This document shows, in pieces, positions 47,947-54,107 of a stretch of 64,000 nt of DNA. Position 1 is the stretch's first letter. Every line of letters starts with the position of its first letter. The stretch is from a bacterium 336/3 (GTDB lineage Bacteria; Bacteroidota; Bacteroidia; Cytophagales; Thermonemataceae): contig LJIE01000001.1 in NCBI GenBank assembly GCA_001281695.1, positions 3,371,521-3,435,520 on the forward strand, read 5' to 3'. The translations under genes and the position numbers were made by a program. Below the pieces are notes generated by a model. It was given only the letters and a program-made list of their open reading frames with translations. It was not told the DNA's origin and searched no databases.

Positions 47947-50868
47947 TTATAATGTTCTTTTTACTTCTCTTTGTTCAAATACTTCTATAGTATCACCAGA
48001 CTCAATATCATTGAAGCCTTTGATGTTCAAACCACACTCATAATTAGTTTTTACCTCACCTACATCATCTTTAAAACGTTTAAGTGTTTCAAGTTCACCT
48101 GTGTGTACTACAATACCATCTCTGATGATACGTATTTTACTTTGACGTTTGATATAACCATCTGTTACCATACAACCTGCCACAGTACCTACACGAGAAA
48201 TCTTAAATACTTCTCTGATTTGTAAGTTTCCTACAATCACTTCTTCTATTTGTGGTGCAAGCATACCTTCCATCGCATCTTTTACTTCGTTGATTGCATC
48301 ATAAATAATAGAATACATACGAATTTCGACTTGTTCTTGCTCTGCTAATTTTTTAGCACCATTAGAAGGACGAACTTGGAAACCAATGATAACGGCATCA
48401 GAAATAGTTGCTAAGTTTACGTCTGTTTCTGTAATCTGTCCAACACCTTTCTGAATTACATTTACTTGAATTTCTTCAGTAGAAAGTTTTAGTAACGAGT
48501 CAGCTAATGCTTCTACAGAACCATCCACATCTCCTTTGATAATCAAATTCAACTGTTTGAAGCTACCCAATGCAATTCTTCTACCAATATCTCCAAGTGT
48601 TAAGCGTTTGGTTGCTCTGATACTTTGTTCACGTAAAATTTGTTCACGTTTGTTAGCAATTTCCTTGGCTTCACGCTCTGTGTTCATTACTTGGAACTTA
48701 TCACCAGCTTGTGGAGCTCCACTCAAACCAAGAATCTGTACAGGTGTTGAAGGCCCTGCTTTTTTGATAGGCTTTCCTATGTGGTCTGTCATTGCTTTTA
48801 CACGACCATGTAAAGCTCCTACTAGTATAATATCTCCTACTTTTAATGTTCCTGATTGAACAAGTATGTTGGTAACATAACCACGTCCTTTATCAAGTGT
48901 TGCATCAATTACAGCACCCACTGCATTTTTATCAGGATTTGCTTTCAGATCAAGCATTTCTGCTTCTAATAAAACTTTTTCTAAAAGTTCATTGATACCT
49001 TGTCCACTCTTAGATGAAATGGCTTGACACTGATACTTTCCACCCCAATCTTCCACCAATATATTTTCAGCAGCCAATTGTTCTTTCACTTTATCTATAT
49101 TTGCACCAGGTTTATCAACTTTAGATAGAGCTATTACGATTGGTACACCCGCCAATTGAGCGTGGTTGATAGCTTCTCTTGTTTGAGGCATGACACTATC
49201 ATCGGCAGCTACTACAATAATTGCTACGTCCGTTAGTTTAGCTCCTCTGGCACGCATTGCTGTAAAAGCTTCGTGTCCAGGTGTATCTAAAAATGTGATT
49301 TTCTTATTATTTTCAGTTGTAACGCTGTAAGCTCCAACGTGTTGGGTAATTCCTCCCGATTCTTTTGCTACAACGTTTGTTCTACGAATATAGTCCAAAA
49401 GCGATGTTTTACCGTGGTCAACGTGACCCATTACAGTTACAATAGGAGGACGATTGACTAAATCTTCTAAAGCATCTTGTTGTTCTTGAATGGTTGCTTC
49501 AATTTCTTCTTCTGCTGAAATAAATTCAACTGCATATCCAAACTCATCTGCAATAATCGTAATCGCTTCTGCATCAAGGCGTTGATTGATAGAAACAAAC
49601 ATTCCCAGTCCCAAACATTTAGAAATTACTTCGTTGATAGAAGCATTCATTAAGTTTGCTAAATCACTTGCTGAAATAAATTCTGTTACACGAATTGTTG
49701 AGTTATCCTCTGTAAGACTATCTTCATTTTCTCTTTCTTTCTTGAGAACTTTCTTGATAGATTTTTTCTTCTGAGTACCCATTCGAGCAAAAGTAGCCTT
49801 GATTTGGTCTTGAATTTCCTTACCAGTAGGCTCTTCTTTATCTACACGCTTCTTTTTATTATTGTTATTATTAGTATTTGTATTGTTGTTTGTATTAGTA
49901 TTGTTATTCGTAGTAGTTGTTGTTGTTGGATTAGTCTTTTTAACATCCTGATTCCCAGTTTTATTAACTGGCGTTTCAACAGCTCTATTTTTCTTAATAC
50001 GTTTTCTTTTCTTTTTCTTATCACCTTTTGTATCAGAAGATGCAACAGGTTTGCCTTTCTTTTTAGAAGAATCAAAAGGAAGTTGTATTTTGTCTAAAAC
50101 AGTCAATCCTTTGAGTGTTTCTGCTTTTGCTTTGATAAGCTCTACAGGAATATTTTCATCCTCTTCTACTGTAACTTTTTTCTCTACCACTTCTTCTTTG
50201 ATAGGTTGTTTTTCTACTTTTTGGAATTTTTCTACTTTCCCTTTATGCTCTTCTTTTTTGAAAGTATTTTCTTTCTTTACTTCCTGTACAACTTCTTTTT
50301 TCACTTCTGCTACTATTTCTTTAGGCTTTTCTTTATCCTTATGGAAGTTCTTATTGAAGTCTTTGTTCTTATTAAAATTATCTTTTTTGATAAAATTTTC
50401 TTTTTCTTTTTTGACTTGTACACCTTTCTTATGAGCATCTAAGTCTATTTTTCCTACAATACTCAAACCAACTTTTTTCTCAGTTTCTTGTGTATTGTTA
50501 TCTTCTGTTTTGGTTACAATCTCTTCCTTTTTTGATACATCTACAGAAGGGATTACTTCTTCTACGGGTGTAGTTTCTTTTTCTTCGGTGGGTTGTGCAA
50601 CTTCCTCTTCTTTTTTCTTTTCAGGAGTCTTTGTATTTTTCACTTCCAAAGTTTTAGCAACAAAGCTCTTGTGAGTAGCTTCTTGCTTTTCCAACAAAGA
50701 AGAGCGAAACTCCTTTTCTAAAACTTCAATTTGCTTTTGGTTGAGTTTGAAGTTGGGGTTGTTTTCTATGGACAAACCTTTGGCAGCAAGTGTTTCAACT
50801 ATTTTGGTAGTTGCCACATTAAAATGCCTTGCAGCTTGGTTTAATCTCATTGTTTTTTCTTCTGACAT
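47947..50868 (-). CDS. infB: Translation initiation factor IF-2
   Basis: GTPase that places initiator tRNA on the ribosome. 973 residues: an N-terminal IF2N domain ([17 protein letters not shown]), a long Lys/Glu-rich region with an Asn/Thr-rich homopolymer-like tract ([16 protein letters not shown] near residues 320-337), then the G domain with GHVDHGKT near residues 480-488, DTPGHEAF and SKVD, followed by domains II-IV. Last gene of rimP-nusA-infB on the minus strand; the 239-bp gap to nusA is large for an operon and contains a perfect hairpin. Confidence 0.97.
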
Positions 50869-51064
50869 AGAGTAGATGTTCGTAATAATCTATTGGTTTT
50901 AACGGTAAGAGATTGGTATTTTTCTTAAAGAAAGTGCAAATATAATGTTTTTTTAGGATTGTAGAAATTTTTTATTCAAGAGATAAATATATATTTTATA
51001 ATATTCTTTCTAAAAAATGTTATTTTTTGAATAAACATTTAATTATCAGATATTTATATTATTA

Positions 51065-51100
51065 TTTTTCAGGAGCTTATAATACAAAGCTCCTGAAAAA
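51065..51100 (-). repeat. 14-bp perfect inverted repeat between nusA and infB
   Basis: Arms TTTTTCAGGAGCTT / AAGCTCCTGAAAAA with an 8-nt loop, 8 bp past the nusA stop. There is no T run after it in either direction, so it is not a canonical terminator; it could be an RNA-processing or stabilising hairpin. Confidence 0.65.
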
Positions 51101-51107
51101 TAGTATT

Positions 51108-52391
51108 TTATTCTTCTGTTTCGTCTTCTTCTTGTTCTTCAAATTCTCTTTGAATAATTTCTAAAATTTCATCTATTTGTTCTTCTTCTAGGTCTGTTCT
51201 ACGAATTAAATCGTTTCTGCTGAGAGCAAGTACACTTTTGGCTGTATCCAAACCTATTTTTCTAAGTTCATCAATCATCCAACCTTCTATCTCATCATTG
51301 AATTCATTAAGGTCTATATCTTCTTCATCCAATTCAGACTCATCAATATCTCTCCACACATCTATTTCTTTTCCAATCAATTTACCTGCTAACTTAATAT
51401 TCAAGCCATTTTTACCAATAGCAAGTGATACTTGATCCGGTTTAAGATATACAGATACTCTTCCATTAGGCTCAATCTTAATAGAACTGATTTTCGCAGG
51501 GCTTAAAGCTCTTTGAATAAAAAGTTCTAAATTATCTGTATGATTGATAACATCAATATTTTCGTTATTTAACTCTCTTACAATGGAGTGGATACGAGAA
51601 CCTTTCATTCCTACACATGCTCCTACTGGGTCTATACGCTCATCATAAGATTCTACTGAAACTTTAGCTCTTTCACCTGGTTCTCTTACAATTTTCTTGA
51701 TAATAATTTGTCCATCAAATACTTCTGGAACTTCTTGCTCGAATAATCTTTCTAAAAACTTAGGTGATGTACGAGATAGAATGATGCGAGGAGCACCATT
51801 GATTAATTCTACTTTTTCAATTACAGCTTTAGCTGTTTCACCTTTACGAAAACGATCTTTAGGGATTTGTTGACTCTTGGGTAATAACAACTCATTACTT
51901 TCAGAATCCATGATTATGACATCTTTTCCAACAATTTGATATACTTCGCCTACAATCACTTCTCCAACACTATCTTTATATTTTTCGTATAAATTTGATT
52001 TTTCTAAGTCTTTGATTTTCTGAATTAAAGTTTGTCTGCCTGTCTGAACTACTCTTCTTCCAAATTTAATAATATCAATTGGTTCTGCAAATTCTTCACC
52101 CACTTCAAAATCTGATTGTGTTTTTTTAGCTTCCGAAATTGCAATAAAATTGGGATTAACAGCTATTTCTGGATCATTATCTTCTACAATTTGTCTATAA
52201 TGGAATATTTCCAAATCTCCGTTGGGATTGATAATAACCTCAAAATTATCATCAGTGCCATATTGCTTACGAATCATGGTTCTGAAAACTTCTTCCAAAA
52301 CGCTAATCATTGTGGGACGGTCAATGCCTTTTGATTTGGCAAATTCCATAAATGATTCTGTAAGCTCTTTGTTATTAACCATATTAACCAT
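51108..52391 (-). CDS. nusA: Transcription termination/antitermination factor NusA
   Basis: RNA-polymerase-associated factor controlling pausing and termination. 427 residues: an N-terminal polymerase-binding domain (RPTMISVLEEVF), an S1 domain (about 130-205, GEVYQIVGKDVIIMDS), two KH domains with GSRIHSI and GKNGLNIK (about 235-375), and a short acidic tail (EEQEEDETEE). The usual AR domains of Proteobacteria are absent, as expected for Bacteroidota. A start at 52382 (MVNNKE) is equally possible. Confidence 0.96.
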   Translation of the reverse strand: MVNMVNNKELTESFMEFAKSKGIDRPTMISVLEEVFRTMIRKQYGTDDNFEVIINPNGDLEIFHYRQIVEDNDPEIAVNPNFIAISEAKKTQSDFEVGEEFAEPIDIIKFGRRVVQTGRQTLIQKIKDLEKSNLYEKYKDSVGEVIVGEVYQIVGKDVIIMDSESNELLLPKSQQIPKDRFRKGETAKAVIEKVELINGAPRIILSRTSPKFLERLFEQEVPEVFDGQIIIKKIVREPGERAKVSVESYDERIDPVGACVGMKGSRIHSIVRELNNENIDVINHTDNLELFIQRALSPAKISSIKIEPNGRVSVYLKPDQVSLAIGKNGLNIKLAGKLIGKEIDVWRDIDESELDEEDIDLNEFNDEIEGWMIDELRKIGLDTAKSVLALSRNDLIRRTDLEEEQIDEILEIIQREFEEQEEDETEE

Positions 52392-52460: not shown

Positions 52461-52925
52461 TTATTTAAAAGATATTAAGACTTTACTACCTACTATATTA
52501 TCAAAATCAATATTTTCAGTTAATAATTCCATTTTTTTTCCTTTTCCTTTTTTCTGCTCAATGGAGATGGTATTATTTTCTATTTTGGTCAGTACTCCTT
52601 CTACGTTTGTATTGTCTTTTAAGTTCACAAGAAGCGTTCTACCAATATGCTGAGGGTATTGTCTGAGTAATTTAAGTGGATTATCAACTCCTGGTGATGA
52701 CACTTCAAGGTTATAGGCTGTTTCAATCAAGTTCATTTGTTCAATATAATCGCCTAAAGCTTTGCTTGTTTTAGCACAAACGTCAATATTTACACCATTA
52801 TCGCCATCTAGGAGAACTGTAACTCTCTTTTTTTCTTTGAGTTGTTTGATTTGTACATCTACCAAAAAATATTCTTTCTCTAAAATAGATTCTACAATTT
52901 TGGTGATTTCAGATTCTAAATTCAT
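52461..52925 (-). CDS. rimP: Ribosome maturation factor RimP
   Basis: Assists 30S subunit assembly. A 154-residue two-domain protein with the conserved VDVQIKQLKEKKRVTVLLDGDNGVNIDVCAKTSKALGD-type N-terminal block and the NLEVSSPGVDNPLK motif that is diagnostic of the family, followed by a small Sm-like C-terminal domain. First gene of rimP-nusA-infB. Its start lies about 78 bp from a consensus promoter, behind a terminator-like leader hairpin. Confidence 0.95.
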   Translation of the reverse strand: MNLESEITKIVESILEKEYFLVDVQIKQLKEKKRVTVLLDGDNGVNIDVCAKTSKALGDYIEQMNLIETAYNLEVSSPGVDNPLKLLRQYPQHIGRTLLVNLKDNTNVEGVLTKIENNTISIEQKKGKGKKMELLTENIDFDNIVGSKVLISFK

Positions 52926-52954
52926 GGTTATTTTTATTAAAAAGCAAAAATAAA

Positions 52955-52985
52955 AGGGGACTTTGCGTCCCCTCTTGGTTAAGAG
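52955..52985 (-). promoter_or_regulatory. Terminator-like leader hairpin upstream of rimP
   Basis: On the minus strand, a 7-bp GC-rich stem (AGGGGAC / GTCCCCT, 52955-52973) is followed by TTTATTTTTG. A second hairpin (CTCTT / AAGAG, 52972-52985) overlaps it by 2 bp at the stem edge, so the two could not both be fully formed. It lies between the predicted promoter and the rimP start. Confidence 0.6.
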
Positions 52986-53002
52986 CTATCATTTTTCTGA
53001 CG

Positions 53003-53032
53003 CAAATTTAGCTATATCTATCAGAAAAACAA
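53003..53032 (-). promoter_or_regulatory. Consensus promoter of rimP-nusA-infB
   Basis: On the minus strand TTG (53032-53030), a 19-nt spacer and TAAATTTG (53010-53003) match the Bacteroidota -33/-7 consensus. The expected transcript starts near 52997, giving a leader of about 70 nt that includes the hairpins. Confidence 0.7.
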
Positions 53033-53111
53033 ATTTTTTTAGTCAAAAAAATCTAAAAAGTATTTCAAAAATATTTATTATATTTGCTAAACATAACTAA
53101 ATAAAAAAGGT

Positions 53112-54107
53112 ATGAATGTCTTAAAATGGTCTTTTAGAGCTGTTATTTTTGTGGTTTTGCTAAGAGCATTTGCCAAAGATACTGTTGTTTATCAAGCCAT
53201 TGCCCCTGTTACTGAGCCTATTTTCGAAGCTTGCTTTGAGCAATTAGCCAGTTTATGGGAGGATTCTACCCAACAAAATTCATCTAATAACACCAAAACT
53301 GATAATAACTCTAAAAAACAGGAGGAAGTGGTATTTTTAGAAGAAGAAGATGAAGCTACGTACGAGAAAGTCCAAGAACCTGATGAGATTTTGCCTTGTG
53401 AGAGTAAAATTAAACATGTGACACATCAACAAGATTGGCAAGATTTACAAAACAAAACTTTCAAAGCTAAATTTACGGTTTTGCCACAAGTGGCTTGCCA
53501 AGCTGAGAGTTTTAGAGAAAAACTGCCTGAACCTGTTTCAGATGGTAGTGTGAGAGATTATTATGGAAAGGTGTACTTGCAACTCACAAAGGATAATAAA
53601 GAAAAAATGCAGAAAATTTATAAAACCTTTGCTAAAATCAGGGAGACACGTAAATTGACTGAGAAACAGTTTGCTGAAATGGTTGTAAGTTATGTACAAA
53701 GTATCCCTTATGTACTTGTGCATCCAGAGTCTTGCACAAAAGCTCGTAAATGGGGTGGTTTTTTTGAAGAATATCATGATGAAGGCAAGGAATGTTTACC
53801 TGAAATTCGTTTTGGACTTACTTCTCCATCTGAATTTATTTATAATTTGAAAGGTGATTGCGACACAAGAAGTGTATTTTTATATACCGTTTTAGCACAT
53901 TTTGGTTATGATGTTGCTATATTTGTCAGTCAAACACATTGTATGTTAGGAATTAATATGCCTGCTCATGGCGATTTTATGAAATACAAAGGAAAAAAAT
54001 ATTATTTTTGGGAAACCACCGCCAAAGGCTATGCAATGGGTGTTGTTGCTCCCAACTTCAAAAACGAAGTCTGGCATTTTGCCTTAGTACGCCCTTCAAA
54101 AATCTAA
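53112..54107 (+). CDS. Transglutaminase-like membrane-anchored protein
   Basis: A 331-residue protein with an N-terminal hydrophobic helix (about residues 8-22), an acidic low-complexity region (EEEDEATYEKVQEPDE), and a transglutaminase-fold domain in which the catalytic cysteine is in KGDCDTRSVFLY, the histidine in SQTHCMLGI and the acidic residue in WETTAKG. These features suggest a cysteine protease or cross-linking fold, substrate unknown. A TATATTTG -7 box lies at 53079-53086. It is 63 bp upstream of trpS on the same strand. Confidence 0.78.
   Translation: MNVLKWSFRAVIFVVLLRAFAKDTVVYQAIAPVTEPIFEACFEQLASLWEDSTQQNSSNNTKTDNNSKKQEEVVFLEEEDEATYEKVQEPDEILPCESKIKHVTHQQDWQDLQNKTFKAKFTVLPQVACQAESFREKLPEPVSDGSVRDYYGKVYLQLTKDNKEKMQKIYKTFAKIRETRKLTEKQFAEMVVSYVQSIPYVLVHPESCTKARKWGGFFEEYHDEGKECLPEIRFGLTSPSEFIYNLKGDCDTRSVFLYTVLAHFGYDVAIFVSQTHCMLGINMPAHGDFMKYKGKKYYFWETTAKGYAMGVVAPNFKNEVWHFALVRPSKI

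Follow-up and report, generated by a model that had tools for sequence, protein, structure and literature searches.

Does the short leader in front of rimP, nusA and infB in the bacterium 336/3 work as an attenuator, and if so, what sets it? An initial annotation had proposed autogenous control of the operon by premature termination, with NusA acting on a hairpin in the leader. The proposal was followed up in the window, i.e. the whole stretch of 64,000 nucleotides that was analysed, in which the following features are of concern:

47947 to 50868, minus strand: infB (IF-2), 239 nt 3' of nusA
50937 to 50944, minus strand: infB promoter box TATATTTG, 68 nt before infB
51108 to 52391, minus strand: nusA, proposed regulator and target (Pfam NusA_N, KH_5, KH_2)
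52461 to 52925, minus strand: rimP, first gene of the unit, start codon at 52925 (Pfam RimP_N and RimP C-terminal SH3 domain)
52939 to 52951, minus strand: U-rich tract ATTTTTGCTTTTT 3' of the stem, read from the sequence
52952 to 52976, minus strand: leader hairpin, intrinsic-terminator-like, AAGAGGGGAC-GCAAA-GTCCCCTTTT (terminator scan and folding; conservation and covariation)
52972 to 52985, minus strand: overlapping 5-bp hairpin CUCUU(AACC)AAGAG, probably incidental
52998, minus strand: predicted transcription start site, approximate
53003 to 53032, minus strand: housekeeping promoter of the Bacteroidota type, TTG-N19-TAAATTTG (sequence; box conserved in relatives)

Read on the minus strand, the promoter put forward in the initial annotation is present, with TTG at 53032–53030, a spacer of 19 nt at 53029–53011 and TAAATTTG at 53010–53003. 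The flavobacterial −7 box occupies −12 to −5 in Flavobacterium psychrophilum according to a passage of a 2021 transcriptome study (PMC9723704), and with the same placement transcription is predicted to start near 52998. From there the 5' UTR of rimP would measure about 73 nt, close to the leader of about 70 nt expected beforehand. The gene across from the leader (53112–54107, plus strand) is divergent, therefore the hairpin belongs to the rimP leader and is not the terminator of that gene. This neighbour encodes 331 aa without a Pfam match at E ≤ 0.001, and a divergent promoter box TATATTTG lies 5' of it at 53079–53086 (plus strand).

The hairpin itself agrees with the earlier description of a GC-rich stem of 7 bp followed by U-rich sequence. 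Its arms AAGAGGGGAC (52976–52967) and GTCCCCTTTT (52961–52952) enclose the loop GCAAA and contain GGGGAC/GTCCCC; there are seven core pairs, or ten including the A-U and G-U closing pairs, and the energy is −15.5 kcal/mol. About 22 nt separate it from the predicted start. In a mechanical scan it is the sole terminator-like site on the minus strand between 47,900 and 54,300, and both strands of 11 kb hold nine such sites compared to 4.9 expected (sd 2.5). Folding of the 80-nt leader gives z = −3.47, a value equalled by 2 of 200 shuffles. That the hairpin goes beyond chance follows from its conservation in relatives. No Rfam family reached its cut-off over the window; matches below the cut-off to SraG, SraB, mir-4679 and TeloSII_ncR43 (E 0.3–4) were taken as chance.

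A covariance model of the hairpin (R1) was run on the genome of 336/3 itself, where the rimP leader ranked second of 81 matches at E ≤ 10. Six other top sites were inspected, five of which are placed between reading frames that converge, the sixth just past a reading frame. The leader hairpin looks like the ordinary intrinsic terminators of its own genome. As a detector specific for rimP the model was rejected, given the number of matches and the likeness of the inspected ones to ordinary terminators. Due to this lack of specificity, the presence of a hairpin was scored by its position relative to the genes.

The best named matches to NusA of the window are those of Raineya, with 85 and 84% identity in the best segment, and the DNA most likely derives from a Raineya-like member of the Cytophagales. 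Among 110 loci RimP was found in 108 (L041 and L043 had no RimP match), and removal of ten duplicates left 98 distinct upstream regions of rimP, including that of the window (L001). A terminator-like hairpin occurs in 96 of these 98, compared to 41 of 490 dinucleotide shuffles of the rimP upstream regions; for other genes of the same loci the figure is 30 of 182 upstream regions. Conservation of the stem in relatives, on which the initial annotation had let its proposal depend, is thus found, together with covariation. In L013 and L055 no hairpin was detected automatically in the rimP leader. L005 counts among the 96, yet its leader hairpin is absent by eye, the match being a hairpin 5' of the promoter; together with L019, L024 and L108, the last of which has a proper hairpin by eye, it was put aside as doubtful, which leaves 92 leaders.

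GGG is present in the 5' arm of 91 of the 98 leaders, and 95 of the 96 hairpins have a G-rich 5' arm, none a C-rich one. Cytophagales usually have the stem GAGGGGAC/GTCCCCTC; in Saprospiraceae it is typically GAGGGAAC/GTTCCCTC, in Prevotella TGAGGGGCTC/GAGCTCCTCA. An exact TAnnTTTG box stands 5' of the hairpin in 86 of the 92 leaders, that of the window included, and in 85 of these 86 at 9–30 nt from the stem. When hairpins were located without any requirement for a tail, 79 of 92 had at least six T within 10 nt 3' of the last G/C of the stem; the 10 nt 5' of the stem reach this count in 4 of 86 cases.

For covariation, 84 distinct hairpins from the 92 were aligned (A1). In this alignment 143 cells are changed on both sides, against 57.5 after shuffling. 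Paired cells amount to 85.6%, compared to 74.7% after shuffling and 42–69% with the partners slid, a percentage that is inflated because the rows of the alignment were chosen by a hairpin finder. Counted by pairs, 8 of 10 show a change on both sides compared to 6.5 after shuffling, which was reached by 80 of 500 shuffles and is not significant.

A divergent upstream neighbour is present in 42 of the 92 leaders, the window included, so that the hairpin there cannot be its terminator. The reading as terminator of an upstream gene was rejected for these leaders; the 46 with a co-directional neighbour and the 4 with none are not decided by orientation. As a separate observation, leaders of the Prevotella type (L061, L065, L070, L086) have GTTCAGTGGAATG in common up to the stem, with a G-U wobble at one stem position by eye, and their sequence is kept more than a plain terminator would need.

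Being located near the 5' end, at a median of 21.5 nt from the rimP start codon, the hairpin could also protect or destabilise the mRNA or hide the translation start, without termination. Neither role needs the conserved U-tract right after the stem, and the resemblance to the end-of-gene hairpins of the same genome argues against both; occlusion is further at odds with a distance to the start codon that varies between 6 and 91 nt. We consider this explanation improbable and continue with termination in the leader.

The initial annotation had also described a second, overlapping hairpin that would compete with the terminator. It exists as written, pairing 52985–52981 with 52976–52972. The competition did not hold up, since five base pairs with −3.6 kcal/mol face the −15.5 kcal/mol of the terminator, and in the three genus mates (L002–L004) no structure at all was found as a counterpart of CUCUU/AAGAG. 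As an antiterminator the second hairpin was rejected because it is not conserved. In the leader of the window GCTCTTAACC (52977–52986, minus strand) comes near the boxA consensus, and GCUCUUAACC is the candidate boxA-type string for Nus antitermination. GCTCTT was found within 110 nt 5' in 1 of the 98 leaders, that of the window itself; the likeness of GCTCTTAACC to boxA is therefore likely due to chance, and the boxA reading was rejected. A switch that operates through the CUCUU/AAGAG hairpin or through a boxA-type Nus site thus has in its favour that both strings are present in the window, and that in 23 of 85 leaders at least three 5'-arm bases can take part in an alternative pairing of −2 kcal/mol or below. 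The confinement of GCTCTT to one leader weighs against it, as does the RNA ahead of the terminator (start site to end of the 5' arm), which on average over the 85 leaders is not more structured than its shuffled counterpart (−1.44 compared to −1.64 kcal/mol). Such a switch appears extremely improbable, and the hairpin is better read as a terminator that forms by default.

Which of the three genes the element belongs to was inferred from loci with a different gene order. The order rimP then nusA is found in 136 of 139 loci, duplicates included, and the remaining three lack a match to one of the two genes. In nine genomes RimP was not detected, even with an alignment at E ≤ 10; NusA is present in eight of them, and the ninth (G185), without either protein, may reflect an assembly gap. 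With added relatives of two such families and with G005, 48 loci with nusA as first gene were obtained, none of which has a RimP profile match within the locus. In the first group of relatives NusA was found in 35 of 40 genomes and 30 loci were examined, in the second in 14 of 15 genomes, all 14 of which were examined.

A hairpin precedes nusA in 42 of these 48 loci, compared to 6 of 480 mononucleotide shuffles, and TAnnTTTG is located within 60 nt 5' of 41 of the 42 hairpins (3.0 expected). By family the hairpins amount to 26 of 30, 14 of 14 and 2 of 4; since the loci come from few lineages, they do not represent 48 independent events. Among those without an automatic hairpin, L239 shows one by eye and L260 offers just 58 nt of sequence, whereas no leader hairpin was seen before nusA in L237, L238, L252 and L273. 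Two of these belong to small genomes of 1.6 Mb (G020, L237) and 1.1 Mb (G029, L238), in which neither rimP was detected nor a nusA leader hairpin is visible; a loss of the control along with genome reduction is possible there.

The genome G005, from the family of the window, is the sole one in which rimP and nusA lie apart, on different contigs of an assembly that is 81% complete and comprises about 500 contigs. There, the nusA leader carries AAGGGATTTGAT-TTA-ATCAAATCCTTT and a U-tract after a promoter, and rimP has a promoter with no hairpin after it. RimP is a maturation factor of the 30S subunit. In the families f50 (L239–L241, L252–L278) and f8 (L235, L236, L279–L290) nusA lacks a preceding rimP in the loci seen, and the members searched as whole genomes (G145, G196, G230, G014, G032) gave no RimP at E ≤ 10. 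A loss of RimP across whole families is of possible interest.

For infB the situation differs. With the box 68 nt upstream, infB of the window probably has a promoter of its own and need not depend on the rimP leader. The controlled unit may therefore be mainly rimP-nusA. Counting the window, 34 of 74 loci have a TAnnTTTG box in the gap between nusA and infB (5.0 expected); no exact box was found in the other 40 gaps, so that infB there may depend on an upstream promoter. Only 2 of 57 infB leaders have a hairpin. In the gap of the window (50869–51107, minus strand, 239 nt) a long A/U-closed hairpin was observed at 51060–51105 right after nusA, terminator-like only on the plus strand.

The distribution over these loci suggests that the unit of promoter and hairpin tracks nusA, and not rimP or infB. 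Since the element is kept at nusA where rimP does not adjoin, the link to NusA made in the initial annotation is strengthened.

To cover the phylum, RimP was searched in 218 Bacteroidota genomes, with a match in 214, and leaders were drawn from the best 150 matches. The 109 leaders consist of 29 loci and 80 of 120 listed places without loci, hand-picked for the spread of genera and not by hairpin; G017, G019, G026 and G036 are common to this sample and the first set. Among these best 150 RimP matches, hairpins were found in 104 of the 109 leaders. The same order contributes 9 of 9 leaders with a hairpin, the same class 34 of 36, and other classes 61 of 64. At stricter settings, the only ones at which the shuffle control was run, 91 of the 109 leaders from the best 150 matches retain a hairpin compared to 44 of 1090 shuffles (order 9 of 9 and 5 of 90; class 32 of 36 and 9 of 360; other classes 50 of 64 and 30 of 640). 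Two of the 18 strict misses (G083, G151) are misplaced gene starts with the hairpin present; by eye, the stem is imperfect in most of the rest.

Within the best 150 matches, TAnnTTTG lies at most 60 nt 5' of all 43 hairpins from the order and class (2.1 expected), compared to an exact box at this distance in only 24 of 61 hairpins from other classes (2.1 expected). For the same other-class hairpins from the best 150 matches, 33 of 61 are G-rich and 25 C-rich in polarity, with TCGCCC...GGGCGATTTTTGTTT as a reverse example, and the GGG...CCC arm pattern is kept in 17 of 64 leaders. As stems and polarity differ outside the class, it is the hairpin with its U-tract that is kept and not one sequence. 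This bears on a further explanation, according to which RimP or another product binds the leader by recognising the G-rich arm GAGGGGAC. The uniform GGG-bearing 5' arm of the first set would suit such binding; the change of polarity and sequence outside the class and the persistence of the element where RimP was not found do not, and we hold it to be very improbable.

A 2010 survey of premature terminators weighed RimP and NusA as possible sensors of rimP leaders and preferred NusA (PMC2965389). Similar to the general rimP leader described there, the window has a short hairpin and U-stretch before rimP-nusA-infB, no visible antiterminator, and a G-rich 5' and C-rich 3' arm; the survey gives 4–130 nt as distance from the gene. 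In the relatives, likewise, hairpin and U-stretch lie between promoter and rimP, the arms read GGG...CCC, and on average no larger conserved element or antiterminator was seen. The survey names Firmicutes and Gammaproteobacteria, and the word "Bacteroidetes" is absent from its main text. In contrast to the general type, the class of the window typically has GAGGGGAC/GTCCCCTC close behind a TAnnTTTG promoter, and in other classes the polarity of the Bacteroidota element changes; at loci that lack rimP, the element is found with nusA. The rimP leader of B. subtilis is given as 180 nt in the survey, compared to about 73 nt here.

The gammaproteobacterial family Rfam RF01770 is similar in that the downstream hairpin of E. 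coli K-12, GGGCU-UUAG-GCCCUUUUUUU, is a terminator of this kind that also precedes rimP, and differs by its tandem-hairpin model of 102 positions. It exceeded its cut-off in none of 39 genomes of relatives (with many matches below the threshold) and nowhere in the window; E. coli K-12 as positive control scored 102 bits. For the nusA leader of B. subtilis, intrinsic termination and negative feedback by NusA are reported in a section of a review (PMC12288461). As there, the element of the window lies in the transcription unit that makes NusA; dependence on NusA is reported there and inferred here.

Within the phylum, the 2021 study noted a structured 5' element before rimP in F. psychrophilum and in other genera of Flavobacteriaceae, without an Rfam match (PMC9723704). 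Phylum and gene are the same as here, and the element is named, in the passages concerned, without anatomy or mechanism. In the open-licence literature searched, no title on a nusA or rimP attenuator of Bacteroidota was found, this study being the sole statement, and neither a phylum-wide description nor the change of polarity or the tracking of nusA was found. The hairpin of the window is a Bacteroidota member of the attenuation type represented by the rimP leader and the NusA attenuator of Bacillus.

NusA stimulates hairpin-dependent pausing and intrinsic termination. RNA polymerase would start near 52998 and transcribe no more than about 50 nt before the nascent RNA folds, by default, into an intrinsic terminator; some polymerases would read through into rimP and nusA. 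The read-through would most likely be set by NusA: plentiful free NusA would lead to more termination and thus to less NusA (and RimP). Architecture, conservation, covariation and the tracking of nusA are read from sequence, whereas termination in vivo and the sensing of NusA are what we infer.

Alternatively, a terminator in the leader could have its read-through set by a factor other than NusA, such as Csp antitermination, Rho/NusG or the elongation rate, or could be a fixed brake. The lack of a conserved antiterminator fits a fixed brake equally, and antitermination by the CspA family has been proposed for the E. coli operon, as cited in PMC6511841. According to the same paper, in the parts that concern this leader, northern blots lend no support to Csp antitermination in E. 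coli, and transcripts of the operon, which has the terminators t1 and t2 5' of rimP, rise in mutants with reduced termination by NusA. With the reported autoregulation of NusA in B. subtilis (PMC12288461) and an element that stays with nusA, we regard a factor other than NusA or a fixed brake as unlikely. A leader attenuator of rimP-nusA, in which a default terminator is read through to a degree most likely set by NusA, is in our judgement probable.

On the scale of the phylum, the element may be an ancient NusA rheostat: a terminator owned by nusA whose sequence and polarity are re-invented between classes while its place near the promoter is kept, and which outlasts the loss or relocation of rimP, with the shortest possible leader and no RNA switch. 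For this wider reading we see the chances as evenly balanced. The loci without rimP provide a natural test of the sensor, and in the majority of these the hairpin is still present before nusA. Autoregulation by NusA would thereby become open to direct tests in a phylum that has a promoter consensus of its own, TAnnTTTG, on a leader that is short enough for simple in vitro assays.
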